DNA from: Ganoderma boninense
Lineage: Eukaryota; Basidiomycota; Agaricomycetes; Polyporales; Polyporaceae
Assembly: GCA_002900995.3 (NCBI GenBank)
Contig: CM035304.1
Span: 1,099,498 to 1,163,497, forward strand
Length of the DNA stretch: 64,000 nt
Direction: 5' to 3'
Below the pieces are notes generated by a model, which was given only the letters and a program-made list of their open reading frames with translations, had not been told where the DNA came from and did not search any database. Numbering within the stretch: position 1 is the stretch's first letter; every line of letters begins with the position of its first letter. The position numbers and the translations under genes were made by a program. Below are positions 3,677 through 58,444 of the stretch, piece by piece.

Positions 3677-5488
3677 ATGTCTACCGTCCAGGTCAGTCCA
3701 CAGGAGATGGCGGACATGTAAGTCTCGCTGCGGTTTGGAAACACACCATGATAATTAATGGTGTTCCTTATCTCTGGGTTGGTTGATAGATATACTTCGA
3801 TCTATTGCGTCTATGCCGCTTGCGGTACTACCTTGTACAACGTCTCCTCATACCAGGCGCTGACTTGCAGTTGATAGCGGTACTCATCTACGACTGGTTC
3901 CTCTGCCTCGACCACGAAGTCAGGTACATATGGAAGTGGCACTCTGGAGTTACTGTCTCGACACTCGTATATGCTGTGTCCCGATACGGGATGCTCATTC
4001 CCAATATTCTGGTTGTCGCGACGGTCTATCCAATGTCAGACCTCGTACGCACTCTCATTTTAACTCTTCCTTGTAGCGTAGTCACTCACGTTGATATAGA
4101 GGTGGATGCTGTTTTCAACTGTGATATTGGTTTTATGCTCACGGCCCTGCTTTCCTGGGACAGCTGTGCTGCGAATCTGTGGACCCAGGTGGTTTTGGAG
4201 ATATTGAGCATAGTAGCTGTTAGCGGTGCGTCAAATCTTTTTCAAGATCCTTTTTTGAGCTGGATTAAGCTTGCTTCCACTGGCAGCTTTCTCTGCTCTA
4301 CGTGCATACGCATTGTCGAATAGGAACTTGTGGTTGACAGCTATGATTATTCTTCTGGTGCTGCCCCCAACAGCGATCTTTATTGTGAGTATACCAGACG
4401 TCTCTCTGGCGCATCAGTCAATAATTGTTTTCCTGGTCAGGCTCAGTCCATCTATGAATCACCTCTAAATCTTCCCAGTCCAATCAATTGTACCTCATCG
4501 TCCTTTATTCCTTCGGCTTTGTCAAGCCTAACGTAAGTCCTCTCGACCATATTTGTGTGTATCGGCGTTAACAAATCCCCTCAGTAGTGCGTTGAACATA
4601 CGCCAATGATGTTTTACGAGTGCTCACGTTTACCATCCACAGTCACTGTGGTTACGCGGGTATCGCAGCTTGGGATCGAGGTTCTTGTTATTGTTGTCAC
4701 ATGGTGGTACAATTATCAGTCGTACCAGGTACAGAAAGGTCGCATCAACCTTGGGCAGTCAATTAGTTCTGTTCTTGTCTACAATGGTGAGTCATTTCAT
4801 CAATTGAGTTATGTCCGTAGCTGAGTAGTGGATTGACACCTCAGGAAGCATATATTTCTTGTGCGTACGCTCCCCAGGACCTGAGAGCAATTCCTCATAC
4901 TCATTGGAAACTGATCAGATTCCTCGCGAGCTTATACACGATCGACATTATTTTCCGGACGGCGTCGGTATGTCCTTCGACCACTGTCGCCTGGATCATT
5001 ATGTCCTTTTGCTCACACGTCACCAAGGTTCCAGAGAATGCTTCTTATGTGGATGGCTTCCTGGAGCTGTTCTATGATCCGTGAGTTTGTCACGCTAAAT
5101 ATGGTGCCGTACCCTTGGTTCAAACGACTGATTCTCTTGTAGCCTTTCTTCAATTCTAGTCTGTCGCTTCATGCTCTCCCTCCGTCAATTCGACGCCAGC
5201 ATCGCGCCTACAGGCACGGCTTCTCAAGTCCGAGATCACACGGCATCGACTATGCTTCAGTTCGGTACGCAGCCAAGCGAGTCGCTCCCGGCCTTCATCA
5301 CGTCGTTCGCACACCCTGTGCATGTCGATTGGTCCCTATCCGAGGCAGACACGGACGCAGTCGTCAACGATGGACCAGAGTGGAGAGAAATGGATGTGAT
5401 AGAGACTGGGATAGAGACGCTGCCCTGCTCGGATCCAACTTCTGGAGAGGGTCAGCCTGCCAAGCCTGAGGTGGAATATTCCGTATAG
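3677..5488 (+). CDS. DUF6533 multi-pass membrane protein, copy 1
   Basis: The model has 13 exons: 3677-3717, 3790-3824, 3878-4044, 4100-4101, 4164-4225, 4287-4384, 4441-4532, 4585-4586, 4643-4786, 4845-4860, 4919-4967, 5028-5080 and 5143-5488. They sum to 1107 nt, giving 368 aa without internal stops. The DUF6533 block is at about residues 26-81 (YDWFLCL, SRY and YPMSDL motifs). About seven hydrophobic segments follow, with FSALRAYALSNRN near 103-116, a predicted extracellular NLPSPINC loop near 145, and VVTWWY near 180. The soluble C-terminal tail carries SESLPAF..FAHPVHVD near 299-316. Two exons are only 2 nt long (AG and TA); without them the frame breaks. The function of DUF6533 proteins is unknown; a receptor- or sensor-like role in a membrane is inference from topology alone. 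It resembles copy 3 most closely, including a nearly identical N-terminus. Confidence 0.92.
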
Positions 5489-6484
5489 TCTGGTGAGTCG
5501 GCATATCAAGCGTGGCAGTTATAAGGTTGTTATTGACCCTGGCGCGGGATAGATACGGAACATAAATATCTGATACCGGAGCAAGTCTCGCGCAGCTGCC
5601 CATGGAGCACACTGTCCCGAACTTGGCCAGGCTCTAGTATACTATTTCATGCAATTATTCGCGTCCTTCGAGCTGTAGTCGCCCACAACTGGAGCGTTTG
5701 TCGTCCTTCTTCTACATAAACATACTTACTGTAGTTCCAAGTACCTGAGACGAAGAAGTCGATGTTCGCTGCCATCTTGAGGATCCGAGTCGAACGCTTT
5801 AGTTGGGTCTCGGTCCCACTGGGCTGGCACCGCCGTTGTGGGACCGCAACTTTGAGGCACTGCATCTGCGCGTCTACTTATCTACTCAGACGCACGCCGG
5901 CACTTGGTCGGTACCTTCTGGGTACCTTTATGCTCTCCTGCACACTGCGCAGTCATCATGGTCTCGCCAGCTTCGTCCACGATGCTCCACTCCCCAGTGA
6001 CGAACCATTCAACGTTGACATACTCCTCCCACTCAAAAGGCCCCGAAAGGTAACTGCCACGACGGGAGGAGCAGCTAGCTCCATGGAATAAAGTTATGTC
6101 GATAGAGGAGTAGGAAGTTTGCATCTACTTACAGCTACTTACTTGACTCCAGCCTGTGTTGACTTCCTACAGATCTCACGTTCGATGAGGGGTGTGCCTC
6201 TCCTCCGAAGGATTCGATGGAAGCAATTGTCGGACATCCACAGTGGAGGTGAAATGCACGCCAGTGTCTGACGAGGCGTAGGACAGGTAAAGGTCTCACC
6301 ACCGGTACGTAGCACCGATCAGAGTTTAAGGTCACTTACCCTGGCCTAATCTCGACTCATTTCACGCATTTTTCTGCTTCTTCACTGCAGGTTTCAAATG
6401 CGGTCACGATCGTAAATAGCTTTCTCATCCTGCCAGTGTCCAACATATGGCCATTACCTATGGTCCGTTCCACCGCGGGTATAC
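5489..6484. other. No firm gene; possible minus-strand remnants
   Basis: Two minus-strand reading frames (about 5882-6124 and 5647-5865) contain aromatic-rich segments, VNVEWFVTGEW and ANIDFFVSGTWNY, that look alike and might be decayed exons of one gene. I cannot join them into a start-to-stop model and recognise no family. Confidence 0.3.
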
Positions 6485-6780
6485 GCTTGATTAGCATTCG
6501 ACTGATGCTCGCGCTGGCAGCATAACCTCCATTTTCGTTTTCCCCTTCATCATCACGCCTCGCCATCCGACGTCCGTGAGGCATTCCGAAACCCCTCCGT
6601 GACCCTTTCCGGAACGGCCTCGAATGTCCGAGAGCACGCGACCTTAAGTTCGCAGCCCAGCGCAGTCGGTTGCTCTCAGGCTTCATCGCCTCCTCCAACC
6701 CTGCGCATGTCGACTCTGCCCTCTGCACTCCTCGGGTGGACCCCGAATTCCGTTGTCAAATACGGGCGGAGAGAGATCCG
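6485..6780 (+). pseudogene. Relic of DUF6533 last exon
   Basis: The stretch matches exon 13 of the DUF6533 genes. A block near 6490-6525 corresponds to the region encoding ILVCRFMLSLRQF. The block at about 6605-6725 corresponds to the tail around the SESLPAF..HPVHVD motif; here it reads as SGFIASSNPAHVDS in one frame. Stops and frameshifts separate the blocks, and no upstream exons (TM1-TM6) are present nearby. It is therefore an orphan 3' fragment of a former family member, ending just where a 75-bp inverted-repeat arm begins at 6801. Confidence 0.7.
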
Positions 6781-6800
6781 AATGGCGAGGAACGGGGTCT

Positions 6801-6875
6801 AGCCGTACTCAATTCTAAACTGTCCAAACGGAGTCCCATCAAGACAGCCCCATAAAAGGGAAGCCCTTGACAGAC
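6801..6875. repeat. Left arm of ~75-bp inverted repeat (partner 7916-7990)
   Basis: The reverse complement of 7916-7990 matches this stretch closely: both contain gccgtactcaattctaaa and aaaagggaagcccttgacag. A few mismatches and a 1-nt indel separate them. The arms bracket a 1.04-kb segment that contains the first 782-bp direct repeat. This could be a TIR element or an inverted duplication. Confidence 0.75.
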
Positions 6876-7134
6876 GTGATGGGAAGAGTCGTCGCAGATA
6901 TAGCCTAGTTCAGGGTTTCTCAAGGGCAAGGTAGTTGGCGGAGTCTGAAGCCGACTTGTTCTCCAAGGATAAAGCGGCAGCTCTTAGGTACGTTAGTCTT
7001 CAATACCTCGGTTTGAGCTTGTAAAACCTAGATACAAGACCTTTTGCCTAAAAACGATGCTCGGAGGCGAAATAATCGTAAGCTGTTCATGGAGGCACTG
7101 CAATTAAAGGTCAGTATCTGACCAACACGCTCCT

Positions 7135-7916
7135 GTCTCCGTTGCTGACCATATACGGACAATGGATGACAGTCGATCCATTTTAGTACATGGTCTGCTA
7201 GTGGTCGCGCCCCCTTTGCAGGAGCTGAGGCTTCAGCTTTCGACTCTCGGATTTGATCGGCTTTGATGCGGGTTAGCCAATCAGCAGCCGAGTTTCATTC
7301 ATCGGCCCGGTCACGTTACTCACTCCTTCCCAAACCGTCGATGGCGCTTATTGCGTCTCCAGTGGTCGTTGGACCCAACGCGAGGATTGTATGCAGTATG
7401 CGGCTGTCCTTTCAGCATCCCAAACAGATAAAGTCAGTGTATTATGCATCATATTCGAATAATATCGTATTTAGATTACTCCCGGAGCCTTCTGGACCTT
7501 AAGGTAGCATTTCTCAATGGTGGTCACACCTGGAATACGACCTACATTGTTTCTCTGAGAAGCTGAGTGGAAGGACTATAATGACCATATACATACGTCC
7601 AGCGTCTGTTTGACGCGATGCCGGACATGCCCGTGTGGCATACTCAGAGACCTCCAGGTGGGCTGGTGGACATTGAGACTGGGCCACTTTATGAATACAT
7701 CAACAAAAATAGCCCAGGCCTCATTCAACCACCACGACCACTGCTACTGAGCTCCCAAATTCGCCACTGTTGACAAGGTATATGCACAAGAACGGAGAAC
7801 GTGCACGCGGAAGGGGACGCGCTGTTTGCCGCTGTGTACGTGTAGACGAGGGCACGTGATCCGACTAAAGCCGAATCCCGAGCTCTGCCAAAACGCTCCG
7901 GGTTGATCAAGACTAG
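7135..7916. repeat. 782-bp direct repeat, copy A
   Basis: The sequence recurs at 8018-8799 with a constant offset of 883 bp and no difference that I could see, so the duplication is recent. Inside, around 7490-7590, the + strand encodes DLKVAFLNG and, in another frame, IYIRP, which resemble the Ty1/copia reverse-transcriptase blocks. This suggests a decayed copia fragment. No LTRs or complete ORF are visible, and the short ORF at 7263-7502 is not a credible gene. Confidence 0.9.
7490..7600 (+). mobile_element. Possible Ty1/copia reverse-transcriptase relic
   Basis: The phrases DLKVAFLNG and IYIRP resemble the copia RT blocks that read roughly LDVKTAFLNG and EIYMxQPxGF, in the right order and spacing but in different frames. 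The same relic is repeated at 8373-8483 because it lies within the 782-bp direct repeat. Evidence is short and by eye. Confidence 0.35.
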
Positions 7917-7990
7917 TCTGTCAAGGGCTTCCCTTTTACGGGCATGTCCTGGTGGCACTTCGTTTGGGAATTTTAGAATTGAGTACGGCT
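7916..7990. repeat. Right arm of ~75-bp inverted repeat
   Basis: This is the inverted partner of 6801-6875. It lies in the 101-bp spacer between the two 782-bp direct repeats. The spacer 7917-8007 interrupts an otherwise continuous 'gactag|gtaagcattagtctc' junction that is intact after copy B (8794-8815), so this arm looks inserted into copy A's downstream flank. Confidence 0.7.
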
Positions 7991-8017
7991 TCTGCGTCTC
8001 CAGTGGGGTAAGCATTA

Positions 8018-8799: not shown

Positions 8800-8825
8800 G
8801 TAAGCATTAGTCTCGTCCCCATCCG

Positions 8826-8854
8826 TTTTGGCGCCCCCGACTCTGCGCCAAAAC
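8826..8854. repeat. Short hairpin gttttggcgc/gcgccaaaac
   Basis: A 10-bp perfect inverted repeat with a 9-nt loop sits immediately outside the left arm of the element at 8850-9359. Confidence 0.6.
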
Positions 8855-9359: not shown

Positions 9360-9474
9360 AGGGCTCTCTCCCCGGCGCTCACAAATCCCTCCGTGCGAAA
9401 TTTCCTGTCGCTACTCACCGCCTTCTCTGATGGATTTGGGAGCGCGGGGGAGAGAGCCCATAACGTCTGGAACC
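9349..9474. mobile_element. 126-bp hairpin element sharing the same terminus
   Basis: 'ccagacgttatagggctctctcccc' (25 nt in full, ending 9373) is mirrored at the other end, where the inverse of ccagacgttat closes the element at 9474. Both arms continue through a ctcacaaatccc-like block. Its outer terminus ccagacgttat is shared with the right arm of the 8850-9359 element, so the two overlap or are nested. The phrase 'gactaggtaagcat' flanks the whole composite at about 8795 and about 9477. Confidence 0.65.
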
Positions 9475-10046: not shown

Positions 10047-11853
10047 ATGTCCTCCATATATGTCCCTCCGCAAGTGCTATCTTTTCTGTAAGTCGACGGA
10101 CAACGTTAATACGTATTGCAGGAAGACTAACACGACTCTTCGCTCTGGAATTCAAGCTACACGTCCATAGACTGCGGCATTGCCGTTTGCGGTTCGAGTT
10201 TCACATTGCTAGTTGCTCCATTGACCGATGCTAACCTGCTCGACGACAGCACTCCTCGTCTACGACTGGCTCCTGTGCCTCGACCAGGAGGTTAGGCTGA
10301 TATGGAGTTGGCGTTCTGTGGTCACCCTCCCGTCGCTGCTGTATGCGATCAGCCGCTACCTGATGCTTGTTTACTCGCTCATGTCTATCGCGACGATCTA
10401 TCCGATGTCGGACTTGGTATGTGGCCCCGCTACCTCTCTTCTTCGGCACGCTTACATTTGCGTGTAGAGGTACAGGATGTTCGTCAACTTGGTTACGTAT
10501 TCATCTGACCTTACGCTCGCTCTCTCCACAACAGCTGTAAGGCGGACGTCTGGGCCCAGACTGCTATCGAGATAGTGTGTCTGACTACTTTCAACGGTGC
10601 GTCTGAGCTGCTCCTCAGAACATGCCAGAAGGCTAACCAGGGAACTCGCCCGTTATAGCCTTCTCTGCCTTGCGAGCATACGCACTGTCGAACAGAAATA
10701 GATGGCTGGCGACTTTAATCGTCCTCCTGACGCTTCCACCTACGGCGATGCGCATCGTGAGTGTCGCAGACATCGCTCCCGATCATGCCCAGTGACTTGG
10801 TTCGAACATAAGGTTCAATCCTTCTATCAGGCTCCCGATAACCTACCGAGCCCACTGAATTGCGGCTCGTCGGCCTCGCTCTCCCCTGCCCTCTCAACCA
10901 GGTGTGTTTGACAACGCGGCCCGGCCCCACGTTTCGTGTCGCAGCAATAGTGAGCTGACCACTTCCTCTTTCCAGTGGTGCGCAGAATATCAATATGACA
11001 CGCTCACACTGTGCTCACTTTTGCTTCCTGCAGTTATCGTAGTTGTACGGGGATGCCAGTTCGCGGCTGAGCTGCTTGTGATTGGGATTACTTGGTGGTA
11101 CACCTATCAGGCGTATCGCGTCCGGAAAAGTGTCGACCTTGGAACACCTATCAGCTCCCTCCTCATTTACAATGGTGAGTCGTGGCGTGGGTTGTCGTGT
11201 TTCTCACTGACAAGAGGGGAAAACACAGGAAGCACATATTTCCTGTACGCCTCGCTTCCTACTAGCCCAACGCGTCGATTCGGGAAGCTCATTTCGAGTT
11301 CCATAGATTCCTCGCGACCTTGTACATCCTCGACATCATTTTAACTCGACAATCAGTAAGTCTTTGAGATTGTGGCTATCAGGATCCTGCCTTACCTATT
11401 CACCATCCCTAGCTCCCAGCGAATGTCCGGAACGCTGCAGCATTTATGGAAACATTCATCGACCCGTGAGTCTACCTCGCGACCCTTTGTCCCTGTTCAT
11501 CCCAGATATCATCTCATCGGACATACAGCATCACTTCAGTACTCACATGTCATTTCATGCTCTCGCTCCGTGAAAGCGATAGCATCGCGATGTACGCGGG
11601 TACGACCTCCGAGTCCCGAGGAGCAGACCATGGCAGGGTGTCGACGATGCTTCAGTTCGGGGCGCAGCCCAGCGAGAGCCTCCCGTCCTTCATCGCATCC
11701 TTTGCGCATCCCGTCCATGTCGAGCCGTCCCTCTCTGAGTATGAGAAAGACTCAGACATACCCATCGACGAGGAATCTGAATGGCGAGAGATGGATGTGG
11801 TGGCGCCACCGTCCCAGAGTGCGGCCCACGGTCTACCGCATACGTACAACTGA
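10047..11853 (+). CDS. DUF6533 multi-pass membrane protein, copy 2
   Basis: This copy has the same 13-exon plan as copy 1. Exon 1 is 41 nt from the ATG at 10047, exon 2 is 10157-10191 (35 nt), exon 3 is 10250-10416 (167 nt), and the last exon is 11529-11853. The 2-nt exons are 10468-10469 (AG) and 10976-10977 (TG). The model totals 1086 nt, 361 aa. Hallmarks are YDWLLCLDQEVRLIW and YPMSDL, then SCKADVWAQT (whose Ser codon is completed by the first microexon), FSALRAYALSNRN, VQSFYQAPDNLPSPLNC, ITWWYTY and a C-terminal SESLPSFIASFAHPVHV. The function is unknown. A truncated ABC-transporter pseudogene follows 330 bp downstream, the same neighbour order as copy 3 and the intact ABC gene. Confidence 0.9.
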
Positions 11854-15259: not shown

Positions 15260-17108
15260 ATGTCCGCCGTCCAGGTCAGTCCACAGGAGATGTCGGACAT
15301 GTAAGCTCATTCGCAGCCCTGTGCCAGCTGGTTGCAAGTACTAACACGGTACCGTCGTTGACATTCGAGACATTAGATATACCACAAACTACTGTGTTTA
15401 CGCTTGTGGTGGTACTATCTCGCATGATTACTCCATTCGTCGCTGCCTGGCGCTGACCTGCGACCATAGTAATCCTCGTCTACGATTGGGTACTGTGCTT
15501 CGGCAAAGAAGTCGAATATATATGGAGATGGCGCTCCAGAGTCGGCATCTCAACGGTGGTGTACGCCGTCTGTCGGTACGGAATGGTGATACACAACATT
15601 CTGGCTGTCGTCCAGGTTTATCCCATGTCAGACCAAGTACGTGGGATTCTGTTTCCGTTCTCTCTCCACGAGGAACTCACCACAATGGATGCAGAGGTAC
15701 TTAGTATAGGTGATACTTGACCGGAAGTTAGTCGGTTACGCTGACGCCGTCTCTTCACCCGATAGTTGCGCGGCGAACCAGTGGACCCAAGTTGTCACCG
15801 AGATTTTGGCCATGGTAGCAATCTGGGGTGCGTTCATATGCCCTTCTCGAATAATGACGCAGTATTGAAGCAACCTGACTTCGGCTCGATTCAAGCTTTC
15901 TCTGGCCTGCGTGCATATGCGCTGTCGAGCAGGGCATTATGGCTGACGGCCGTAATATTTTTCTGGATGCTGCCACCAACAGTGATTTTCACCGTGAGCG
16001 TCTTCGATGTTGCTCCGGCCAAGAGTCGGACAGTCATCATCCATCACAGGTCGAATCCTGCTACGAAGCTCCCCTGAACTTTCCGAGTCCTATAAATTGC
16101 TCCTCGTCGAGCTCGCTGCCTTCGGCCCTTTCAAATATGACGTGAGTCATACTACGACCGGGATTCGGCATGGCGACGCTGATCGATAGACAATTCTCTC
16201 TTTCCAGTAGTGTGTAGCCTCAGCACCCATAATCTTTCTGCGATGCTCACTTTCGCCATCTAGTTACGCTGGTTACGCGGGTATCGCAGCTTGTTATAGA
16301 ACTCCTGGCTGTCGTCGTCACATGGTGGTACAGCTTTCAGTCGTATCGGATTCAGAAGGGTACCATCGACCTCGGGAACTCTTTGAGTTCGTTCCTCGTG
16401 TACAACGGTGAGTGACCTCATGTATGGGGCCGTATTCCAATCTAAATTGCTACTCGAAATCTTAGGAAGCACCTATTTCTTGTGCGCGTTAGTTGCGCGA
16501 AGCGCGAGAATGACAGACTGATCAGGACCTCTGTGCAGGTTTCTTGCGAGCTTGTACATCTTCGACATCATTGTTCGGACGGCTTCGGTGGGTCCTTCAA
16601 CCGTGGATAATTGTACCGCGAGGTGTCCCTCATCCACTCTCCAGGTTCCCGAATCCGTCTCCAATGTAGCCGACTTCTTGGAACTCTTCTACGATCCGTA
16701 AGCCGCTGCCTTATCCGTCGTACCGAAGGCCTCCTTCCCGACTAGCGGTTTACTCGCAGCTTGGCATCGATTCTCGTTTGCCGCTTCATGCTCTCCCTCC
16801 GCCAATTCGATGCCAGCATTACATACGCGACCGAGGGCACAGACCCTCGCAGTCCAGACCACACCGCATCGACAGTCCTCCGGTTCGGGGCTCAGCCGAG
16901 CGAGTCGCTCCCGGCTCTCATCGTGCCATTCGCCCACCCCGTTCACGTCGACTGGCCCCTGTCAGAGACGGATCCAGAAGGTGTCGCCGGATTCGAAGGT
17001 GGATGGGAGTGCCGAGAAATGGATGCGGTGACGACCGGGACAGAGACACTACCCTGCTCGGATCTAACCTCTCAAGGTCAAACTACCGAGGTGGAACACT
17101 CCGTGTAA
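15260..17108 (+). CDS. DUF6533 multi-pass membrane protein, copy 3
   Basis: This copy has a 13-exon structure with the same exon sizes as copy 1, except a 32-nt exon 2 (15377-15408) and a longer last exon (16760-17108). The 2-nt exons are 15695-15696 (AG) and 16208-16209 (TA). The coding total is again 1107 nt, 368 aa. The N-terminus MSAVQVSPQEMSDM differs from copy 1 at two residues. Motifs include YDWVLCFGKEVEYIW, SCAANQWTQ, TLVTRVSQL, VTWWYSF, GSTYFL and SESLPALIVPFAHPVHVDW. The copy 1/copy 3 similarity implies a fairly recent duplication. The intact ABC transporter follows 610 bp downstream. The function is unknown. Confidence 0.92.
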
Positions 17109-22899: not shown

Positions 22900-24527
22900 A
22901 TGGGTTCAAGCGCGAACTTCATCGAAATCTTGTAGGTGTGAATTCAACGCAGCTGTCCTCCCGAAAGCCTAACAGCATGCTTGTAAGGGTCACAACGGAG
23001 TATTGCCAGGTGGCTGCCCTAGGTAAGCAGACACCCCTCCCTCGAATATGTGCCATTCGGAACACAACTTATGCGTTTCGTTAGCTCTTGTGACCTACGA
23101 CTGGCTGGTATGCCTTCCGTCAGAACTGACCCATATATGGCCCGCCGAGCGCAGGAAGACCATGGCTACCATGCTCTACATCGTCAACCGTTACGCTACG
23201 ATTATATCTCTCGCCCTCCCGTTGACCACCTTCTTCCCCGCACTATTCCCAACGTTGGAGTCCTGCGTCATTGAGGTTACCTTCGCCACCGCATTCACCT
23301 TGGCACCGGTGCTGACTTATCCGGGTACGCTCGTTTTAACGCTCCGGCATGATGATTATGCTGATTATCCTTCTTCTCCAGCATTACATACCCTGCGGGT
23401 ATACACCCTATCCAACAGAAATAAAGTGCTCAGCGCAATTACGTTTGCGCTGTCTCTATTTGAATTTATCATGCAACTCGTCCGTCCCATTTCTACCCAT
23501 CGGTCACGGCGTGTGTGCAGCGGCTGATTCTAGTGCCAGGTCCAGCAAGCTGCATATACCCGCGTCGCACTCGAACCTCCCCCCTTCGGCTGTAGTGGCT
23601 TCGACACGACACCAGTCAATCTGGGTCTCAAGTGAGTCTCGGATACAGATGCTTTGACCACATGTGGCTTGGTGATACCCGGCGGCTGAAGCAGATTACA
23701 GACGTAAGTGGGTCAAAAGCGTAAGGAGATTATGAGAACTCACAGCGAACCATGACTGCAGTGGTCTTCATCGAAGGCGCCATCAACGTCGCCTCGAACA
23801 TCTTGGTCATCTACGTGACATGGCGCAACACAAAGTGGGCTACTGCACAGCTACAGGAGGGGCTTAACATCGGATCGTCGTTCTCTCGCGTCATGCTATA
23901 CCACGGTGAGCTCAAGCTATTCCATCTCGATTCGTTGTCCAGCGCTGATCCCCAGTCTTCGGTTTAGGCAGTGTGTATTTTCTGTATGCCCTTGATTTTA
24001 TCTACTCTTTTGGCGTCTGGTTAATCTGCCACAACCAGCGTCTTCATCATCATTACCATTGTCCAGACACTTTTCTCTGTCTTCAACGTACGCTCGTTCC
24101 TTCAAGTCACTTGAGGTTCTCCAACTTAACTGTACCCCCAGTTGCACTCCATAGACACGACGTCGGGATACCCCGCCGTCTTCCTGGACCCGTACGCACC
24201 ATCTACCCATTCTGCTCAGATCGACTCATGATGCGGTGTTTTTTTTTTAGGATAGAGTCGTTATTGCTCTGCAGGTTTCTCCTCGGGCTGCAGGAGACGG
24301 CTGCCGACCTCGCTGGGACGGCCAATTCCCGTTCCCTCGATCTCAACTTCGCATCGGCAACTGGCACAAGCACATCCCCCGCGTTCCCTCACTTCATCGC
24401 ATCCATGGGCAATTCTGTCCACAATGATTTCGGGGAGGAGGGAACGTCGAGTCCGGGCGGAGAGGAGACGCCGGGTGACTGTTCCCCACACATCGGAGAC
24501 GAGAACGGCGTCCGTACTTCTGGTTGA
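22900..24527 (+). CDS. DUF6533 multi-pass membrane protein, copy 4 (divergent)
   Basis: The proposed first exon, 22900-22931 (MGSSANFIEI), is followed by a 35-nt exon 2 (22988-23022), the same size as in the other copies, and exon 3 from 23085. Visible motifs are YDWLVCLPSELTHIW, VNRYATI, LHTLRVYTLSNRN, VIYVTWRN, GSVYFLYALDFIY, VFLDP and CRFLLGLQE. The tail has FPHFIASMGNSVHND in place of the FIASFAHPVHVD motif. Unlike the others, it runs without a break through the position of the first microexon (LESC), so those two introns were lost. The second microexon is retained (AC at 23702-23703). The middle exons (23390-23640) are the least certain part of the model. The function is unknown. Confidence 0.75.
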
Positions 24528-29126: not shown

Positions 29127-29157
29127 TCCCATCTCTACATCGATTCAGATACCTACA

Positions 29158-33584: not shown

Positions 33585-35482
33585 TCAGTCGACCACGGTC
33601 CACTCGGTTGCATCTCGCCTTGCACAGATTGACACAACATTACGCACATCGTCGGAAGAACATTTCGATCTGCCCGGGAATTCGTCGCCGGGCTCAATGC
33701 CTACATCGGTTTCATAGAGATCCAAGTCTACATGGACAGGATGGGCGAATGACGCAACGAAGGCTGGAAGGTTATTGCTGGAATGCACGGCGAACACGAG
33801 AGCCGTCGAGTGGGGGCTGTGTCCTTGGCCTTGAGTATCTTGCAAGGATAATGTCGCGAGTGCGACGGTGTTGTCGAATTGTCGGAGCGAGAGGATAAAG
33901 CGACATGCAAGGATAGAGGTTGCACTGCGTGTGCAAGGCTGATATGTCAGATGAGAGCAAGAGAGAAGGGGGTTGAAATGTCGGACTGACACATCGTAGA
34001 ATTGCACTAGGAAGCTGTCCACGGCCGTGAGCCCAGCGTGAAGCACTTGGAGACGATTACAGGTACCTACGGGTCGTAGAACGTGGCAACGAATACCCGC
34101 CCGGTAGAGATCTCTCCGGATAACTAGCAAATATATGAGAGGTCATCATAAATTGAATAAACTGGGGTTAAAATACGTACTGACGCCATCTTGAGAATTA
34201 TGTCGACAATGTACAAGATTAAGAGAAACCTGGAAAAAATCACAGTGAACCGTCAAGGCAACATTTTCGCAGAGAGCAGCTCGTACAAGAAATACAGGCT
34301 TCCTACATTCACGCAATGTAAGCCGAGCTCGAGGATGCCGTGATCTGCAAGATGACTCACCGTTATACAGCAGGAGAGAACTGACTGTGGTACCCAAGTT
34401 GATTCCTCTTCGAATGCGGTACGACTGGTAAGCATACCACCAGGTGATGCCGACCACAAGCAGCTCTGCTATAATCTGTGACCCGCGGGATACGATCGTC
34501 ACTGCGAATTACCGCAGTGAGCTTGGGTGAGCATGCAGACGGATATCCTGCGCACCACTAGAAAACGCAATGAGATCAATTTCGACGTCATAAAACATGA
34601 ACCCGAGGCTGTTGAAGACACCTTGTAGAGAGTGTCCGAGATAATGTGACCGAGGGGCTACAATTAAATGGACTAGGAAGGTTTTTTGGATCTGCGTAGA
34701 CATCTTGAAGCTTGCAAGACAGAGGTTTACGGGCTATGGGCAGGAACGATGCTCGAAAACGCTCACAATCGCCATCACCGATGGCGGTAGTACCAGGATG
34801 TTGATTATCGCCGCCAAGTATATATTCCTGTTGGATAGCGCGTATGCGCGCAGCGCAGAAAATACTAGAGATACATCTGATAAGTTTGATGCTTGCGTAA
34901 GGAGTGAGTCTGACGTACCGCCAAATGAGATTGTAGCCAGCATTCGTGAGATGATTTGGGCCCATGCGTTAGCCCTACAGCTAGAGGGGAAAGAAAGAAG
35001 GCCATAAGCACGCTCGTCAATTCACTGGGTTGGACATTGCTGGCTACTACCTCTAGAAATGGAGTGGTAACCTTGTCGGAAGAAGGGACATTAGCGGGAA
35101 GGCTTACTAGGTCCGACATGGGATAGTTGGTTGCGATGACCAGGACATTCTGTATCAAGAGCGAATAGCGGCTCACTAGATACACTACAGGAGCGGCGGT
35201 TACTTTGGGGTGCAATCCTGAGCCCCATATCAAAGTGACCTCTTCGCCGAGACACAGGAGCCAGTCGTACAGAACGAGCGCTGGGACGGAATGTCAGGAT
35301 TGGGCCGTTCCAAAGTTGTGCACGGTGCGGTACCGGATGCGGCATTTCCACTGTATGCATTCATGTAGCTGATTTTTAAGTTCATAGGGTGATCAGGACT
35401 CCTCCGAAACAGATAAAAGGTGCTACAAGACTCGGACTCACAAACTTGCTAGTTCTTGGGCGCTGAAGTCGTTCGCGGACAT
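33585..35482 (-). CDS. DUF6533 multi-pass membrane protein, copy 5
   Basis: On the minus strand, start codon at 35480-35482 (MSANDFSAQELASL) and stop at 33585-33587. Exon sizes of 41, 35 and 167 nt match copy 1. The two 2-nt exons are 35051-35052 (AG) and 34556-34557 (TG). Motifs are YDWLLCLGEEVTLIW, SRYSLLI, YPMSDL, SCRANAWAQ, FSALRAYALSNRN, NLPSPFNCSPS, ITWWYAYQSYRIRRG and LPAFVASFAHPVHVD. It is the first of five minus-strand copies, facing the plus-strand array, and ends tail-to-tail with the carbonic anhydrase. The function is unknown. Confidence 0.88.
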
Positions 35483-40004: not shown

Positions 40005-41721
40005 TCAACTGGAGGTCGGCAACCCAGATGCCTCTTCAACTTCGTCATCTTCCTCATCCAATGTAAATGAGTCGATGTGGACAGGATGAGCGAAGGATGC
40101 TATGAATGCTGGGAGTCTGTCGCTAGGGCGTGCAGCAAAATCGAGCACTGCGGAAGCTTCATGCCCTCCGACTGGAAACACCACACTGGGAACCGTCACA
40201 GAGGCAGCGGTGCTGTCGAATTGGCGGAGGGAGAGGATAAATCGACAGGTGAGAATCGAGGCTATCCTGATTCTGGTCAGAATATTTTGGGAAGAGGAGC
40301 TGTCAGTGGAGAGAACGTACGGGTCGTAAAAGATGATCATGAGCCTGTCAGCGTCGAACACCGAGGCTGGAACCTGTGAGTCATGATGAGAAAAGGCGCG
40401 GTGTGGTGAAAGGTTGGTTGGATGGCACACCTGTGCCGTGTTGAAGATGATATCGAGGATGTACATGTTCGCAAGCACGCTGAAAAGAAGCCATAAACGT
40501 CTAACATTAGAAGATCGGAAGAACTAGGCGTACAGAAAATAGAGACTTCCTGATTGCGCCCCCTGTTAGCTAGCCATAGGACGTGTTATATGAGGACTCA
40601 CCATTGTATACCAGAACAGAACTGATGGTCCTACCCAATTTTACTCCTTGTCGAATGCGATATGACTGGTATGTATACCACCAGGTGATACTGATGACAA
40701 GCAATTCCCCTGCAAGCTGCGAGGCTCGGAAGACGATAATTGCTATATGTTCCGGGAGTGTGAAGCGTAGGAGGACTTTCAATTAGTATACTGCTTACAA
40801 CTGCAATTAAATATAAATTTATCAGCGTTGCTCGAAGGTAAGGGTGCTATTGAACCCACATGATAGAGACTGTCTGCGATATGAAGCTCGAGGGACTGCA
40901 ATTGAAAGGACTGGGCAGGTTTTGAGGAACTGTATACACATATTGAAGCTGAAAGATTTTTGTCACCAAAGTCAGCAGAAGTCCCACATGCGATAACTCA
41001 CAATCGTCATCGCTGAGGGTGGTAATGCCAAAATGATGATTATGACTATCATCCACGCATTTCTGTCTGATAGTGCGTATGAACGCAGAGCCGAAAACGC
41101 TGAAACCAAGTCTAGATCTGGATATGAATGAGAAGTCGAAGTTTTCATACGCACTAGTGATTGCCATTATCCCTAGTATACGTGCGATGGTTTGAGCCCA
41201 CACATTTGCGTTACAGCTATCGAGGATATGGTCAGCATGATGTAAGTATATTATATCAACTTTTCTCAACGGACAGCTACTTCTAAATGTCATATAATGA
41301 GTCCATATAAACAAATACGTGTTTGATGTGGCTTACCATGTCAGACATTGGATAGTTCGTTGCAATGGACAAGATAGCCTGTAAAAGATATGAATAGCGA
41401 CTGAATACATAGACCACAGAGGCAGCAGAAACTCTCGGCTTCCGATCTGAGCTCCATATGAACCTGACCTCCTTGGTCAGGCATAGAAGCCAGTCGTATA
41501 CGAGAAGGGCTATCACAATATATATGATAGTAAGGATCATTCCATTCCGAAAAAAAGGATGCAGGAGACGGCCATACCAGGTGCTGCATTTCCCATGAGT
41601 GCGTTCAAGTCACTATTATTCAATAATCCACAAGGGTCAGTGTATCTTCATACTTGACATGAAATCGTATGGGGACTCACAGAAGCCATGCGTAATGCAC
41701 GCTAACCTCAGGCACAGACAT
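40005..41721 (-). CDS. DUF6533 multi-pass membrane protein, copy 6
   Basis: On the minus strand, start at 41719-41721 (MSVPEVSVHYAWLL) and stop at 40005-40007. The first exon is 41 nt. The 2-nt exons are 41281-41282 (here AA, giving Asn instead of Ser in NCNANVWAQT) and 40799-40800 (TT). Motifs are YDWLLCLTKEVRFIW, FSRYSYLL, YPMSDM, FSALRSYALSDRN, NLPSPFNCSPS, ITWWYTYQSYRIRQG, and DRLPAFIASFAHPVHIDS near the C-terminus. The changed microexon sequence with unchanged length is informative: the length, not the bases, is conserved. The function is unknown. Confidence 0.88.
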
Positions 41722-43419: not shown

Positions 43420-45289
43420 TTAGTCTAACCCAACATGTCCTGGAGTGGACTTCTCGTGAACAGTGGTATACTCACTGGAGGATATCCCGAAGACAGTTGG
43501 CGGTTCAATTGTGGCGAAGGATCGATTTGCAGGACCATGTGGGCGCAGCCCACTTGTACTAGCAACGACACGTACTTCTCCGTGGTCTGGTCCATCATAG
43601 AGTGTTGCTTCAGGCCCGCCTACCTCAGACCGATCCGAATCGACGTGGACAGGATGAGCAAAGGACGAGATAAAAGCGGGGAGGCCGTCGTTGTGGTGCG
43701 CTCCGAATCGAAGGACCGTTGAGTCTGTATGCTCCCTGAGTTGGCTCGATGATAACCCTGGAAAATCCGAGCTTGACGCGACGTTGCTGTCGAATTTCCG
43801 AAGAGAGAGGACGAAGTGGCAAACGAGAATCGAAGTGATCCTGCGAGCATCGTCAATCACATAATACGCCGAATGGGGAGACGACGCGACCTACGGGTCA
43901 TAGAATATGGTCATGAGGCTGTCTGCACTCAAGACCACGTCGGGTACCTGGAGCGAAATGAGAGGTGAGATTGAGACGCTCGCAAGATGTCGGAGATGAC
44001 CGTACTGGTGCGGTGCGGAAGATGATATCGAGGATATACAGAGCCGCGAGAAACCTAATGCTTTTGGAGTGAGCTCCGAAGATCACACCCTAAGAAGGAA
44101 GGCGCACAAGAAATAGAGACTTCCTAGTTATGCAGCATGTTAGTGCTCGTGTTTGGACAGAACTATCCACGAGGTAACTCGCCGTTGTAGAGGAGCAGCG
44201 AACTGACGGTATTCCCGAGCTTGACACCTCGCTGAATTTGATACCACTGGTAGGAGTACCACCAGGTGATACCGACCACCAGCAGCTCCGCTGCAAACTG
44301 CGATGCTCTTGTCGCCATGTACACTACGGTAGGAGCGATGAGCGACAGATAAAAGCGTCAGATTAGCACGCGTCGTACCGCTGAAATTGGTTATCACTTG
44401 TACACGCCATCGACAGAATGCGGTAAACAGAGCTTACCTTATGGAGAGTGTTGGAGAAAGCGATACTGAGGCGCTACAATTGAATGGACTGGGTAGGTTT
44501 TGCGAGGATATGTGGACGGATTGGATCTTCGTGGGCAAATGGCTCAGAAATGTTTACAAAAATGGTGCGCGGAAGCTTACGATTGGCATTATCGTTGGGG
44601 GAAGTGCAAAAACGATGATTATAACGACAATCCATACACTCCTGTTCGACAATGCATATGCACGTAGTGCGGAGAAGGCTTGAAGCCGACAAGCCAGAGT
44701 TAGTCAGAATGGGAGTGTGTTTAGGGAAGGTGGATGTGCCTACCGCTGACCGGAATGGGGCTGAGCATCGTGACGGCAGCCTGGGTCCAAATATTCGCCC
44801 TACAGCTAACAGGAGTGGCACATGTTAAGATAGAGGAATTTATCACCCAGTGAGCGAGCATCCGTTACCTCTGCGTACCTGTGATCAGCTCTGTATGCGA
44901 GAAAGTAGAGATGATCTGGCTTACGCGGTCTGACATCGGAAAGTTCGACAGAATGCCCAGAACGCTCTGTATGAGCAATATATAACGACTACAGGCGTAC
45001 ACCAGTAGCGACCCCGTAGCCTTTGAGCGACTGTTCCATATAAAATCAATTTCTTGGTCGAAAGAAAGGATCCAGTCGTAGATGACGAGTGCTAAGACAC
45101 GAGATTAGTATCGCAAAACGGAGTGATACTATTCATGCTTGTACCAGAAGCAGCATTGCCACAGTACGTAGCTATGTAGCTATTGATCGACGATCAACAA
45201 CAATGTCAGAAGTCGTGTGCTAGTAACCAAAACTAGTGCTGGACTCACAAACTCGACAGCTCTCGAGCACCGGCATTGGCGGCAGACAT
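43420..45289 (-). CDS. DUF6533 multi-pass membrane protein, copy 7
   Basis: On the minus strand, start at 45287-45289 (MSAANAGARELSSL, 41-nt exon 1) and stop at 43420-43422. The 2-nt exons are 44869-44870 (AG) and 44379-44380 (CG). Motifs: YDW, a Ser-Cys-Arg-Ala-Asn block whose Ser codon spans the first microexon, FSALRAYALSNR, TRASQFAAELLVVGITWWYS, and DGLPAFISSFAHPVHVDS in the last exon. The tail beyond that motif is longer than in copies 1-3. The function is unknown. Confidence 0.87.
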
Positions 45290-50266: not shown

Positions 50267-52090
50267 CTATGCAGAAATTTCGCGGGTAGTGGGCGATTGG
50301 CTTGAATCTGACGTCGCGCTCCGATAGCAGATGTCCTGTGAATGCGCCCCCACGGCCGTATCGCACCACTCATATGCGGCTTCTGCGTCTCGTGAAATCG
50401 TGTCTGAGTCCGGTTCGGACCGAACAGCGTCAACGTGGACAGGATTAGCGAAGGACGCGATGAAGGACGGGAGGCTGTCGCTCCGCCGTGCCCCGAAGTT
50501 GAGGACGGTGGAGTCCCGGACATGAGAGCCTGGTTCGGATCCCGTGCTGTCTTCGCCAGTGATATCAAATTCGCGAAGCAAGATTATGAAGCGACACGTT
50601 ACGATGGAAATGATCCTGTGAGCGTCCTGAGCTGTCCGCATATGAGGCTCGGGGAGTGAGGGGACTTACGGTTCATAGAACTGGGTTATGAGGCCGTCCG
50701 CATTCACAGCAGCAGCAGGGAGCTGGAATAAAGGGAGATGAGACACGGGGACACATGTGGGTCGGGTTCGAAGTACGTACTTCCGCCGTCATGAAGATCA
50801 AGCTGAGGATGTACAACGCGGCGAGGAACCTTCAGTTCGGACGCATGAGCGCACACGGTCTCGAGCGTGATGAGCAGAGGGCCTCACAAAAAACAGAGGC
50901 TTCCTGAGCATGACGGTACTGGTCAGATCGTGCCCCCAGCATATGGAATAGACAGTGGATATCTTACCATTGTAAAGAAGGAGAGAGCTGATGGTCACGG
51001 TGTTTTCGACTTTGATGCCCCTCCGAATGCGATATGACTGGTAGGTGTACCACCAGGTGATGCAGACGACAAGCAGTTCCAAGGCCAATTGCGATACTCG
51101 CACGAGAACAGACGCTGCGGTGGAAGAGTCTCAAAGTCAGAGTCGCAGATATGGGTACAGAAGACCATCTATGTTACCACTGAGAAGGTTGTATTAGAGG
51201 TTGAAGTGCAATCAAATAGCATTGCGCGAGTCGCTGGACATACATGTAATTGAACCTGGGGGATATATTTGTTGAAGAGGTGCAATCGAATGGGCTGGGC
51301 AAATTTTGTGGCGTAACATGAATAGATTGGATCTTCTCTCGCGAAAGATCGTTATTAATCAGTTTTGAGTCGGAGAAAGTACATGAGTACTCACAATGGG
51401 GACTACGAATGGTGGTAGCGCTAAGAGGATGATTAAAGTCATCATCCATGCACTCCTGTTGGACAGAGCATAAGCACGGAGAGCAGAGAAGGCTATAGGC
51501 AAGGGTGGTTTATTGATTTTGTTCCAGTTGTTTCAGAACACGAGTGGACTAACCACTATTCGGAATCGGGCTTAGGACCGTGTCGGCCATTTGGGCCCAA
51601 GTATTTGCACTGCAACTATTCAAGCGAGTAATTCGCATGAGTACGCTGACATCAAACAGGCCTATGGATATCCGTTACCCCTACAAACTCAGTGAGATAA
51701 GTAACAGGATATATGCGACAGAATGCCACGTACCAGATCCGACACGGGAAAGTTGGACGCGATGACCAGAATACTCTGCATGAGCATGAGGTAGCGGTTG
51801 GAGAGATACAAAAGCGAGGAGCCGGTGAACTTTGAGCGCGAGTTCCACATCAGTCTGACTTCTTGGTCGAAACACAGGATCCAGTCATATATCATGAGCG
51901 CTGAAGAGTACATTTAGCGTCGAACGACCGAGCAAATAGGACGCTATATCGCACCGCAAGTGGCATTGCCGAAATATGCGCTCATAAGGCTGTTACACGA
52001 CGGTGAACAAGGACGTTAGGACTCATGGGAAGCGAGAGACTGGATGAACTGAACGTACAAATTCGAAATCTCCTGCACCACTGCGGACAT
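50267..52090 (-). CDS. DUF6533 multi-pass membrane protein, copy 8
   Basis: On the minus strand, start at 52088-52090 (MSAVVQEISN; exon 1 is 32 nt, three codons shorter than most copies) and stop at 50267-50269. The 2-nt exons are 51679-51680 (GG, giving Gly-Cys instead of Ser-Cys) and 51178-51179 (TG). Motifs are YDWILCFDQEVRLMW, SNRYLMLM, SDL, FSALRAYALSNR, NLPSPFDCTSS, VSQLALELLVVCITWWYTY, ILSLLL and SLPSFIASFANPVHVDA. The function is unknown. Confidence 0.87.
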
Positions 52091-54245: not shown

Positions 54246-55356
54246 ATGTCTGGGTCCTACCAACTTGCGCCTCCGTCATCTGTGCCGGGGATACCTGACC
54301 TCCGCCGCCGGAACGTTGTCGATTCCAAGTCGCGTCTCCCGGACACGGCGAGCCGGACGCCCTCAGACGTCGAAGCGGACCTCCGTAGATTCGCGGCCAC
54401 GACCGTGAATACAATATCCGCCTTGAAGGGCCTCGTGCTGCAGATTTCGACGCGGCCACGCACAGGTGCAGATGCGGCGGCGACCGCAGGGTTTTGGCCC
54501 TGGTTGGCGGCCATGTCGCACTGTGGCCGCCTCGTGAAGGTGGAATGCTCGAGATTCGTGCGTGAGTCGAGGCAAATGTGCAGGCGGTTCGGAGTGCCTG
54601 ATCCTGTGGAGGAGCATCTCGAGGTAGCCGTGCATGCTCGGGCTGGGACAGATGCAGAAGGTGAGGCGAACGACTGACTCCTCTCGAACGTCGCGGACTC
54701 ACCTTGCATGCCATGCAGACCTCATGCAGTCCTCAAGGGAAATGTTTGGGTTGTGTCAGAGGAGGATCGGTCAGGTGTCCGCCAAATGGAACAACGAAGA
54801 CGTCATCAAAGAGGACCTTCGCGCATTCTTATGCCGGCCGCAGGACCACTCGCCACAACCGGCGCCAGGCCTGGGGATGTGGCGGCTGCTTCTGGAAGTC
54901 GCTGTCGACATGGAGTCAGTGGGAAAGATGTACGGCAGGATGTATACGGACCTCAAGATGCTCCATGATCGGGGCGAACAGGTCGGATGGCAGAATTGGG
55001 AGATTTGCTGTGCACGGCACAACGTCACGGTGGGTCGTAAAAGACTGCGCGCGGAGCCGCGAACAGAGGAGGGGGAACGGATGGTATTGGCGAGTCATAT
55101 CCAGGAACAGCTACCTGATGGGACAGGATCTGCAGCACCCCCGAGCGACAGCGACGGAGAGCGTCAGCGGCCCCAGCCTGAGATGAGCGCAACAGTCCTC
55201 ACAACGACGGAGGTGTCATCGGCAGACGTACCACTGGTAGCCTTGGTTTCGAGCCGCGACTCCGAGCGTTCTAGTGGGAATGGATCTGTGGGTCGCTTTC
55301 GCAGGTTCGGGAACAGGATCGTGGCTCTCACAAGTAGGGGGAAGAGAGCAGCCTGA
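54246..55356 (+). CDS. Unrecognised two-exon protein (350 aa)
   Basis: The model has two exons, 54246-54660 and 54719-55356, joined by a 58-nt GTGAGG...GCAG intron; the total is 1053 nt. The start MSGSYQLAPPSSVPG is chosen because it is the ATG nearest the conserved-looking reading frame; an in-frame ATG lies further upstream at 54177. The middle (about 60-260) looks like a helical globular domain (LRRFAATTVNTISAL, MWRLLLEVAVDMESVGKMY, GWQNWEICC). The C-terminal third is Ser/Thr/Glu-rich and probably disordered. No signal peptide or membrane segment. I recognise no family; it may be a basidiomycete-specific protein. Confidence 0.6.
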
Positions 55357-56529
55357 TCGGATCACTGATCGTGCCCAGACCACACGACTGTCACATGCAC
55401 GTGACAGATGGTCACCGGTCACGACTGGAGTGGATAGCGCCCGACGATCATTTTCGGACCTCGCGTTCGATGGCTCCCCGAGTCCGCGGCAGGTTCGTCT
55501 ATGCTCGGGCAAGTTTTTTGTGTCTACTCATTGTACCTGCTTATTACTCAACTACATTTAGTCCGGTATATATATCGCCAAAGTTCGTTCAACCACCACG
55601 CCCGGCAGGACGCCATAACGACGCTCGACTCAGCCTGAGTCGACCTCAGCAACCAAACACTTCAAGTTTCGCCCATAGTATTCCACTTGCGAGCTGTATC
55701 TTTTCATGTACCAAGGCTTGGAAATTTAGTGGAGGAATGAAGGTGTACACTTCCGACTACAAGTATAACAGAGGTGAGTTTGTGAGACCTCAATGTCCTC
55801 AGTCGCGAGCATGCGGAGTTCCCAACGCATGAGCCAGATGTACGAGGAGGCGCACAGCACCACGATGCTCGGCATAGGCTAGCGCTGCAGCTACCGTCAT
55901 AACCCTCGAAAGGTTGACCGCGTTCAGCTCGGGGCACACCTCTCTTAGAGGAGTGCGCGCGATGCGCAGCTGGTACGCACGTTCCGATACAGACGTGGCC
56001 CGGTCCTTCTCGCGACGGCGTTTGCGCATCCGCCCACAATTGACAGTGCCGGGGAAAGCTCAGCAGCACCGCTGTGCGCTGATAGAATGATATGATCCAG
56101 ACACGGCACTGTATTCAGGACCCCAGCGAAGAGAAGTTACCTGCGAGAGTCCAAGAGGCATTGAAGCGAGAGCACGGCACGCGCGCATCGTCCAGGGATG
56201 TCGATGAACTCTGACTGACGCTGGTTGGGGTTCTGGAGTCATAAGGTTAGATTATGCATGCTACAAATCAGAGTATTCGATCAACGCGACTGGCCAGAGT
56301 CGCGATCACAACAGTCGGGCATGGACGGTGCTCCCCGAGGTATTCTAACCCGCGGCACTTCACAGAACCTTCCGCCGTCCGAGTCAACCCATGCACCGTC
56401 CAATGGATGAGTACGGCGAGTTGTACTTTTCTCGATACCTCTCAACTTCCTCGACCTGACCAACGGTCAGTCCATGCCTGCAAGGTTTCCCGTGACGACG
56501 GCTTGCAAACGTGAATGGCCGTCGACGAG
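55357..56529. other. No supportable gene
   Basis: A minus frame at 55799-56029 (MRKRRREKDRATSVSERAY...) reads like protein but has no partner exons that I can identify. Otherwise nothing. Confidence 0.35.
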
Positions 56530-58444
56530 CTACGCCAAGTTATCCACCGCAGAAAAGGGCCGAGTCGGCCCAGGGCTCGAGCTGCGGTGACCGTGAGGCT
56601 GGGGTTCCAAATCCAAGGTCCGAGTCGGTGCTGGTGCTCCAACCTCGTTGTTCAAGTTGGCTTCCGGCGATTCGGGGCCGTCGGTGTCTCCGACATCAGC
56701 GTCCGAGGAGAGCGTCGAGTCGACGTGGTGGACAGGGTGAGCGAAGGACGCGATGAAGGACGGGAGGCTCTCGCTGGGCTGCGCCCCGAACTCGAGGATG
56801 GTCGAGGCCGCAGGGTCGCGGGGTCGGGATCCTGGCACAGACTTTGTCGGGGACGTCGACGCGATGGTGGCCTCGAACTGGCGGAGCGAGAGCATGAACC
56901 GGCAGACGAGGATCGACGTTATGCTGCGCGCGTGGATTCTCATCAGGGAACAAACCACGCCGAGCGCCGTAGCCTGCAGCGGGCGGACTCACGGATCTAT
57001 GAATGCTTCCACGAATTCTGAACGGTCTCGGGTCGCGCCTGAGGTTGCGACCTGCAAGCGGGACGTGTTATGATGAATTGGGAATGCTACGCGAGTGGCG
57101 AAAGGTGGGCCACCGCACCAGTGCTGTTGTGAAGACGATGTCGATGCTGTACAAGGTCGCCAGAAATCTGAAAATGAAATCGAGGTATGAGTCCCAGGAA
57201 TGATGGAGGTGACGGAGCCCAGCATACAGGAAGTAGAGGCTTCCTAAGAACGCACAGACTGGCACGTCAGACAATGCGATGCGGGATAAGGTCGAGATGA
57301 TGACTTGCCATTATAGAGAAGGAGAGAACCCAGTGTTTTCCCAAGTTGGGCGTTTTTCCCGAGGCGATACGAATGGTAGGTGTACCACCAGGTGATAACA
57401 ATCACCAGTAGCTCAGCAGCGAATTGCGACGCTCGTGCCACAGCGACAACTGGAAGGTAATGAAAATGAGGATAACGGAACTAGCATATCACATATCAAA
57501 TGGTAGCACGCACTCCTGGGATAAAAATTAGTCTTTTTGTAAGCATCGACATCTAGAACGCTGGCTGACATCCACAATCACCATACCTTAGAGACATATT
57601 TGGAGATAGTGAGCTCGACGACGAGCAATTTATCGGACTGGGCAGGTTAATGGGCGTTTCGTGTACGGACTGGATCTTCTCGATACATAAATTTGTGATG
57701 AGGGGCGGGGGGGAATATCTCAGGGACTCACGAGGTACATCACGGCTGGTGGTAGTGCCAGAAGGACGACTATAGACGTGAAGAACATACTCCTGTTCGA
57801 CAGTGCGTACGCACGCAGGGCCGAGAATGCTGCAAACCGGCACTATTTAGACCAGGAATGAGATAGTAGGGAGATTAGTGCTGGACGTACCACTGAACGA
57901 GAGCATCCCAAGTATCTCAGTGATGTTCTGGGTCCATCCATTCGCTGTACAGCTGCTCGGGAGCCAGTTTAATCAGTACGAAGATTACTGCTAGGCGCAG
58001 CTTTGATGACGAAGAGCTACCTCTACAATTGTGGATGATGAGTCCCTCAAAGGTAAGAGAAGAAGGCAGACTGCGCACCGAGTCTCCCATGGGCAATATT
58101 GTTGAAGCGACCAGCACAAATTGCAAGAGCATCGCATAACGGCTGAACACGTAAACGAGAGAAGGGGCGCTGAATCTTGACTTCCAGCCCCATATGAATT
58201 TTACCTCCTTTCCAAGGCAGAGGATCCAGTCGTATGCAAGGAGCGCTAAGCCCTAAAATCAAAATCGAAACAATCTGGCAACAAGCAGTGTGAATGCCCA
58301 CTGCATACAGCAGCACCACACCTCGTGGATGTGTAGCTATCAAATATTCCGGAACGAAGACATATTAGGTAGACTCTAGGTAAGCTTCATCAAATAGACG
58401 TACTTAAAAGATATCATTCCGGCACTGATATGAATGGTCGACAT
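56530..58444 (-). CDS. DUF6533 multi-pass membrane protein, copy 9
   Basis: On the minus strand, start at 58442-58444 (MSTIHISAGMISF, 41-nt exon 1) and stop at 56530-56532. The 2-nt exons are 58021-58022 (AG) and 57514-57515 (GA). Motifs are YDWILCLGKEVKFIW, FSRYAMLL, SCTANGWTQN, FSALRAYALSNR, HETPINLPSPINCSSSS, RASQFAAELLVIVITWWYTYHSYR, SLYFLYAGL and SESLPSFIASFAHPVHHVDS. The longer tail has extra Pro/Ser-rich sequence. It is the outermost minus-strand copy. The function is unknown. Confidence 0.88.

Follow-up and report, generated by a model that had tools for sequence, protein, structure and literature searches.

We analysed a window of 64,000 nucleotides (nt) from Ganoderma boninense (assembly GCA_002900995.3, contig CM035304.1, positions 1,099,498 to 1,163,497 of the forward strand; positions below are those of the window) that holds a cluster of DUF6533 genes, members of a large membrane-protein family. 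Exons 3 and 5 of these genes are separated by a sequence containing an acceptor AG, two bases of varying identity (NN) and a donor GT, a unit written here as AG/NN/GT and referred to as site 1. On the DNA evidence the two bases are very likely a genuine, constitutive coding exon that is ancestral to the DUF6533 family of this fungus. A first-pass annotation of the window had read them as a real 2-nt exon, and at the DNA level this reading is supported by the length specificity of the unit, by branch-type motifs in the flanking introns, by compensation between NN and the donor that follows it, by the reading frame and by residues present in database homologues.

The unit was found at all eight positions proposed in that annotation (Table 1), in each case as acceptor AG, two bases and donor GT in the transcript sense. 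As had been claimed, exon 3, which ends in YPMSDL or a variant of it, closes in phase 0, and exon 5 opens with one codon-completing base ahead of a Cys codon. The intron sizes claimed for copy 1 (55 and 62 nt) are also correct, and both flanks are ordinary GT-AG introns in the eight window copies, with 51–58 nt before NN and 62–70 nt after it. The description of this as a feature of eight genes holds in that the eight units are real, but a profile search places nine DUF6533 matches in the window, the ninth of which lacks the unit, and the feature is genome-wide.

Length specificity of the two-base unit

A profile search of the 55.6-Mb genome for DUF6533 (PF20151) gave 191 candidates, of which 150 were scored, so that the family comprises at least 150 matches. 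The curated cut-off was exceeded by all 150 scored matches and also by the homologous proteins P0001, P0003, P0046 and P0060. These matches are in many cases clustered and lie on contigs C1, C3, C5, C7, C8, C10, C12 and others. DNA was read for 114 of the 150, and the genome-wide copy counts given below refer to these.

For 97 of the 114 copies a first script located the donor and exon 5, and these copies form the basis of the motif-spacing counts. We used a strict motif ([CT]AG-N2-GT[AG], with both introns at least 38 nt long) and a loose one (AG-Nk-GT). The strict motif with two bases is present in 80 of the 97 copies. Spacings of 0, 1, 3–5 and 7–15 are each found in 1–7 copies and a spacing of 6 in 18, an excess that we tentatively put down to GTANGT donors. 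In 200 shuffles of the gap sequence, the strict 2-nt motif appeared on average in 3.5 of the 97 copies and never in more than 10, in line with the earlier point that a fixed length with varying bases argues against chance. The loose motif occurs at two bases in 92 copies and at other spacings in 10–61, the highest of these (61 copies, at spacing 0) arising because NN = AG creates a zero-length match.

A second script fitted a full frame model to the 114 copies. A 2-nt exon fits 100 of them and is the top-scoring model in 99, whereas each of the other lengths (1 and 3–11) fits 1–19 copies. The two bases of the 100 modelled copies are AG in 52, GG in 13, GC in 11 and GA in 9, with 15 copies showing other pairs. 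Both these tallies and the count of 100 include the copy at 41281, which the script miscalled as CT instead of AA, several copies in which it chose a wrong exon 5 (intron 2 >80 nt), and some doubtful rows. Nine of the 14 unfitted copies show AG/NN/GT by eye (L014, L025, L045, one L059 copy, L062, L064, L072, L075 and L076).

Splice signals and alternative readings of the junction

The analyses of splice signals, single-intron alternatives and compensation were performed on 84 copies, after 16 of the 100 with an intron >80 nt had been dropped; the 41281 row was kept. A CTRAY branch-type motif lies 8–35 nt upstream of the acceptor in intron 1 of 40 copies (48%) and in intron 2 of 26 copies (31%). 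The corresponding means from 300 shuffles of the introns are 10.2 and 10.4, with maxima of 19 and 20, and both flanks thus exceed chance in carrying the branch-site motif of a competent intron. The motif mostly lies 10–19 nt from the acceptor, and both its frequency and its position resemble those of control introns after exon 5, 38% of which (of 61) contain it. The donor that follows NN is GT in 98% of copies and GC in the remainder; its +3 base is A or G in 89% and its +5 base is G in 61%, and the information profile of the junction region is low outside the AG/NN/GT unit. GC donors after NN are seen in L039 (GCAAGT) and L029 (GCACGT), and a GC donor (GCAAGT) is probably used at intron 1 in L025 and L050.

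These signals bear on the possibility that the gap is a single intron with some other frame-keeping donor or acceptor, its central AG/NN/GT being there by chance. Enumeration of such alternatives did yield a frame-keeping GT..AG pair near the junction in 77 of the 84 copies, the commonest alternative donor lying 10 nt upstream (GTCNGA in the Met-Ser-Asp codons, 34 of 84). With reasonable sites (GTRNG..YAG), however, any pair at all is found in 32 copies and no one pair in more than 8, and the alternatives were rejected as not conserved. A single intron would also have to accommodate a branch-site motif just ahead of NN, an exon 3–exon 5 gap with a median of 120 nt (97 copies), twice the 57 nt of an ordinary intron in the family, and homologues such as P0003, P0028, P0041 and others that retain MSDL-x-C. 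We consider it very unlikely.

If NN is an exon, its bases should also matter to the donor behind it. In a non-redundant set, from which three near-duplicates had been removed, the donor has G at +5 in 17 of the 42 copies whose NN is AG, compared with 32 of the 39 that have another pair (Fisher p = 2e-4). Mean U1 matches at +3 to +6 are 1.69 for NN = AG and 2.54 for other NN, and this difference persisted when the C1 cluster was left out (p = 3e-5) and under a permutation stratified by contig (p = 0.0014). These p values carry no correction for multiple testing and come from related copies. A stronger donor where NN is not AG is the exonic/intronic trade-off expected if U1 reads NN as the end of an exon.

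The same genes contain a second candidate exon of this size. In copy 1 it lies 485 nt downstream of site 1, and we refer to its position as site 2. With a strict filter a 2-nt exon is found at site 2 in 42 of 98 copies, compared with 0–5 copies for the other lengths from 0 to 12, and with a relaxed donor in 56 of 98. Under a loose filter it is present in each of the nine window genes, two of which have a second candidate (Table 1). NN at site 2 is AG in 3 of 56 copies and the donor has G at +5 in 51 of 56, consistent with the compensation rule.

Adjacent acceptors and donors are also a feature of recursive splice sites, or ratchet points, which like the DUF6533 unit imply stepwise removal. Under such a reading site 1 would be a zero-length exon, an AG/GT ratchet point, and NN would be absent from the mRNA. 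Copies with NN = AG do present TAGAG/GT with AG and GT juxtaposed, and it is from these that the loose zero-length count of 61 derives. The strict zero-length motif, however, is present in 7 of 97 copies; 48 of the 100 modelled copies have a pair other than AG, which leaves their unit without AG/GT; and site 2 hardly ever has AG. Unlike ratchet points, the unit has two intervening bases and introns mostly of 50–70 nt. Because NN is so often not AG and the frame would be lost if exons 3 and 5 were joined without it, we regard recursive splicing at a zero-length exon as highly improbable.

We therefore return to the 2-nt exon, for which the following mechanism is proposed. NN would sit between two short major-type (U2) GT-AG introns, each recognised separately by intron definition. 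The 3' splice site of intron 1 is only two bases from the 5' splice site of intron 2, so the two introns would very probably be removed one after the other. To U1, NN would be the exonic portion of the donor of intron 2; AG would accordingly be the favoured pair, and a stronger intronic portion would allow other pairs to be tolerated. NN and the first base of exon 5 would then make up one codon, the frame being lost without NN. From these features we infer that NN is included in the mRNA, that the introns are removed stepwise and that the exon is used constitutively.

Reading frame, homologues and the encoded protein

In each of the eight window genes that carry the unit, direct joining of exon 3 to exon 5 causes a frameshift. 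Skipping NN brings in a stop after 1–19 residues in six of them and no stop in the translated stretch of exon 6 in the other two (15695 and 51679). Splicing copy 1 by hand gave an intact protein of 368 residues, from the ATG at 3677 to a stop ending at 5488, with 13 exons of which two are 2 nt long (41, 35, 167, 2, 62, 98, 92, 2, 144, 16, 49 and 53 nt plus the last). Omission of the first 2-nt exon leads to a stop at residue 101 and of the second to a stop at residue 207. L067, a distant paralogue on another contig with NN = GG, likewise gave an intact protein (381 residues) with its 13 exons in the same order (44, 35, 164, 2, 62, 101, 86, 2, 129, 16, 49 and 59 nt plus the last). The shared layout suggests that it predates the split of the two subfamilies. 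The 16-nt exon (4845–4860 in copy 1) is also of equal length in L067. Relatives of the hand-spliced copy 1 and L067 proteins are found in G. adspersum, at 69% and 71% identity, respectively.

If NN is translated, a single residue should separate the last codon of exon 3 from the conserved Cys. A first homologue search gave 45 proteins, of which 43 carry an organism name, in every case Ganoderma, and exactly one residue is present at this place in nine of them (P0001, P0003, P0005, P0007, P0023, P0025, P0028, P0037 and P0041). A second search returned 17 proteins, 14 of which were aligned; five have a clear single residue, namely P0046 (G), P0047 (D), P0049 (G), P0052 (A) and, from Dichomitus squalens, P0055 (V), and P0059 and P0060 also fit. 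The assertion that gene finders miss such exons is therefore right for the many models that skip or extend the junction, but the residue is present in 9 of 45 and in 5–7 of 14 models, and in none of the seven new proteins from a third search. P0003 and P0060 are uninterrupted proteins of 364 and 341 residues on contigs of 2518 and 2319 bases with the source tag 'lgn', which we take to denote assembled SRA contigs. Open reading frames that run without a break on contigs of about 2.5 and 2.3 kb, against 13 exons in the genome, point to transcripts, and the two sequences are probably transcript-derived (cDNA). No relatives of P0003 were found in viral contigs.

Several observations weigh against a 2-nt exon at site 1. 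The same-frame control lengths of 5, 8 and 11 fit 16, 11 and 19 of the 114 copies, so that the frame model by itself lacks full specificity, and the 100 fitted copies include doubtful rows with odd donors or exons (e.g. L009, L055 and L056). The paralogues are kin and hence not independent observations. When only the C1 cluster is considered, U1 compensation points the same way without reaching significance (p = 0.09–0.14), and with C1 and C5 both removed the +5 G test by itself gives p = 0.07 (U1 match, p = 0.002). Among the database models, 36 of the 45 from the first search are without the single residue (junction skipped or extended, or region lacking), as are all seven added by the third search, which was profile-based. 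The transcript origin of P0003 and P0060 is read from contig size and the 'lgn' tag. Finally, 5 of the 114 copies have no unit (L018, L037, L048, L081 and the ninth window copy).

These five exceptional copies suggest some decay in the family, and one might suppose that the copies in general are decaying and that the phase gap is a frameshift mutation. That some 100 divergent copies share the same phase gap of 2 nt argues strongly against this, as do the full-length copy 1 and L067 proteins with their G. adspersum relatives, and we give this explanation almost no weight compared with a 2-nt coding exon.

The codon formed by NN and the first base of exon 5 encodes Ser, Gly, Ala, Asp and others and directly precedes the conserved Cys. 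In P0003 it corresponds to residue 82, adjoining Cys83, which stands at the beginning of predicted transmembrane helix 3. A second cysteine, Cys152, is in a hairpin ahead of helix 5; of 24 aligned rows, 20 retain the first cysteine and 20 the second. A structure model of P0003 (predicted local distance difference test score 74.8, predicted template modelling score 0.64) has seven long helices. The 50 PDB matches listed by Foldseek for this model are all G-protein-coupled receptors, including Ste2, with modest query template modelling scores of 0.33–0.48. Automated models of the DUF6533 family are often wrong around these junctions. One member of the family, SNB1 of Coprinopsis, is described as a seven-helix protein required for fruiting-body patterning (PMC10949477). 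One may speculate that two obligatory 2-nt exons per gene act as a shared splicing gate tuning which of the receptor-like copies (at least 150 genes) yield readable mRNA, although we think this improbable.

Known ultra-small exons and coordinates in the window

The first-pass annotation placed 2-nt exons at the lower limit of what spliceosomes define. Such exons are indeed very small, but the limit is not exact, as 1-nt exons have been published (PMC4674806, PMC8831610, PMC12940212); the papers cited in this section were available in part, and our comparisons hold for those parts. In plants including Arabidopsis, 1-nt exons of APC11 (PMC4674806) and VPS55 (PMC8831610) were confirmed by reverse transcription PCR and RNA-seq. 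Like the DUF6533 exon, they are far below exon-definition size, flanked by introns, conserved and often unannotated, and for APC11 intron definition with stepwise removal was proposed, as here. They differ in being 1 nt long and in one gene family each, whereas the DUF6533 exons, as predicted from DNA, are 2 nt long and occur in about 100 paralogues at two sites per gene. A 1-nt exon in the Fusarium cytochrome P450 gene CYP621A is supported by SRA reads, and its authors call it the first in a fungal gene (PMC12940212). It resembles site 1 in being fungal, in the phase gap within an intron of more than double length and in AG..GT flanks that are conserved across orthologues. An intronless relative served there as length marker, a part for which the ninth window copy is a suggestive candidate at site 1. 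The Fusarium exon differs in its length of 1 nt, in belonging to orthologues of one ascomycete gene and in an AGGGT unit that does not vary among the 24 genes.

Other fungal cases are more distant. The microexon switch of Trichoderma virens Xlr2 has a functional consequence, and fungal microexons are there called little characterised (PMC11121469); unlike site 1, it involves regulated inclusion in a transcription-factor gene and is not a gene-family feature. Exons down to 6 bp are reported for Phanerochaete P450 genes (PMC1184071), and for very short exons of Ganoderma lingzhi RNA-Seq performed better than Iso-Seq (PMC11590231). These are from the same phylum or genus and are misplaced by software or long reads, and no family of 2-nt exons is described in the available parts of the two papers. 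Among the papers that it covered, our literature search found no report of a family-wide set of 2-nt exons in DUF6533 genes. Thus, exons of 1–2 nt are already known as isolated cases, and we have not found the scale seen here, a double set in about 100 genes, described. One genome offers about 100 natural variants at one site, plus a second site per gene, with varied bases and splice strengths, so that the way in which the spliceosome handles exons too small for binding on both sides is testable by comparison within a species.

Table 1. Predicted two-nucleotide exons and adjoining features of the nine DUF6533 genes, in window positions.
Feature	Position	Strand	Details
Copy 1, intron 1	4045..4099	+	55 nt, GTACGC..TAG
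Copy 1, site 1 exon	4100..4101	+	AG; with following C, Ser (AGC)
Copy 1, intron 2	4102..4163	+	62 nt, GTGGAT..CAG
Copy 1, exon 5	4164..4225	+	opens one base ahead of conserved Cys codon
Copy 2, site 1 exon	10468..10469	+	AG; introns 10417-10467, 10470-10534; exon 5 from 10535
Copy 3, site 1 exon	15695..15696	+	AG; introns 15637-15694, 15697-15765; exon 5 from 15766
Ninth copy (gene 23072-23330), Ser codon beside Cys	23261..23263	+	TCC; one uninterrupted exon
Copy 4, site 1 exon	35051..35052	-	AG; introns 35107-35053, 35050-34981; exon 5 from 34980 down
Copy 5, site 1 exon	41281..41282	-	AA (Asn); introns 41336-41283, 41280-41217; exon 5 from 41216 down
Copy 6, site 1 exon	44869..44870	-	AG; introns 44924-44871, 44868-44806; exon 5 from 44805 down
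Copy 7, site 1 exon	51679..51680	-	GG (Gly); introns 51733-51681, 51678-51616; exon 5 from 51615 down
Copy 8, site 1 exon	58021..58022	-	AG; introns 58078-58023, 58020-57953; exon 5 from 57952 down
Copy 1, site 2 exon	4585..4586	+	TA; introns 4533-4584, 4587-4642
Copy 2, site 2 exon	10976..10977	+	TG
Copy 3, site 2 exon	16208..16209	+	TA
Ninth copy, site 2 exon	23702..23703	+	AC; weaker GC-donor candidate (donor 23649-23650) also passed loose filter
Copy 4, site 2 exon	34556..34557	-	TG; loose filter only
Copy 5, site 2 exon	40799..40800	-	TT; second candidate CA at 40792-40793
Copy 6, site 2 exon	44379..44380	-	CG
Copy 7, site 2 exon	51178..51179	-	TG
Copy 8, site 2 exon	57514..57515	-	GA

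The ninth window copy (23072, + strand) has Ser-Cys within a single exon and has probably lost both site-1 introns. Its loop has 25 residues compared with 22–26 in most others, so that as a length marker it is suggestive only. Two junction-peptide probes found no other fused (intron-lost) site-1 copies in the same genome; one match (C1:1134533-1134673) is exon 3 of the 35051 gene running into its intron 1, which is open by chance. The ninth gene keeps a 2-nt exon at site 2 though its site-1 introns seem lost. The 44869 and 51679 genes have very similar copies at C1:1182102 and C1:1188679, about 37 kb further along, which suggests a segmental duplication of the gene pair inside the cluster.

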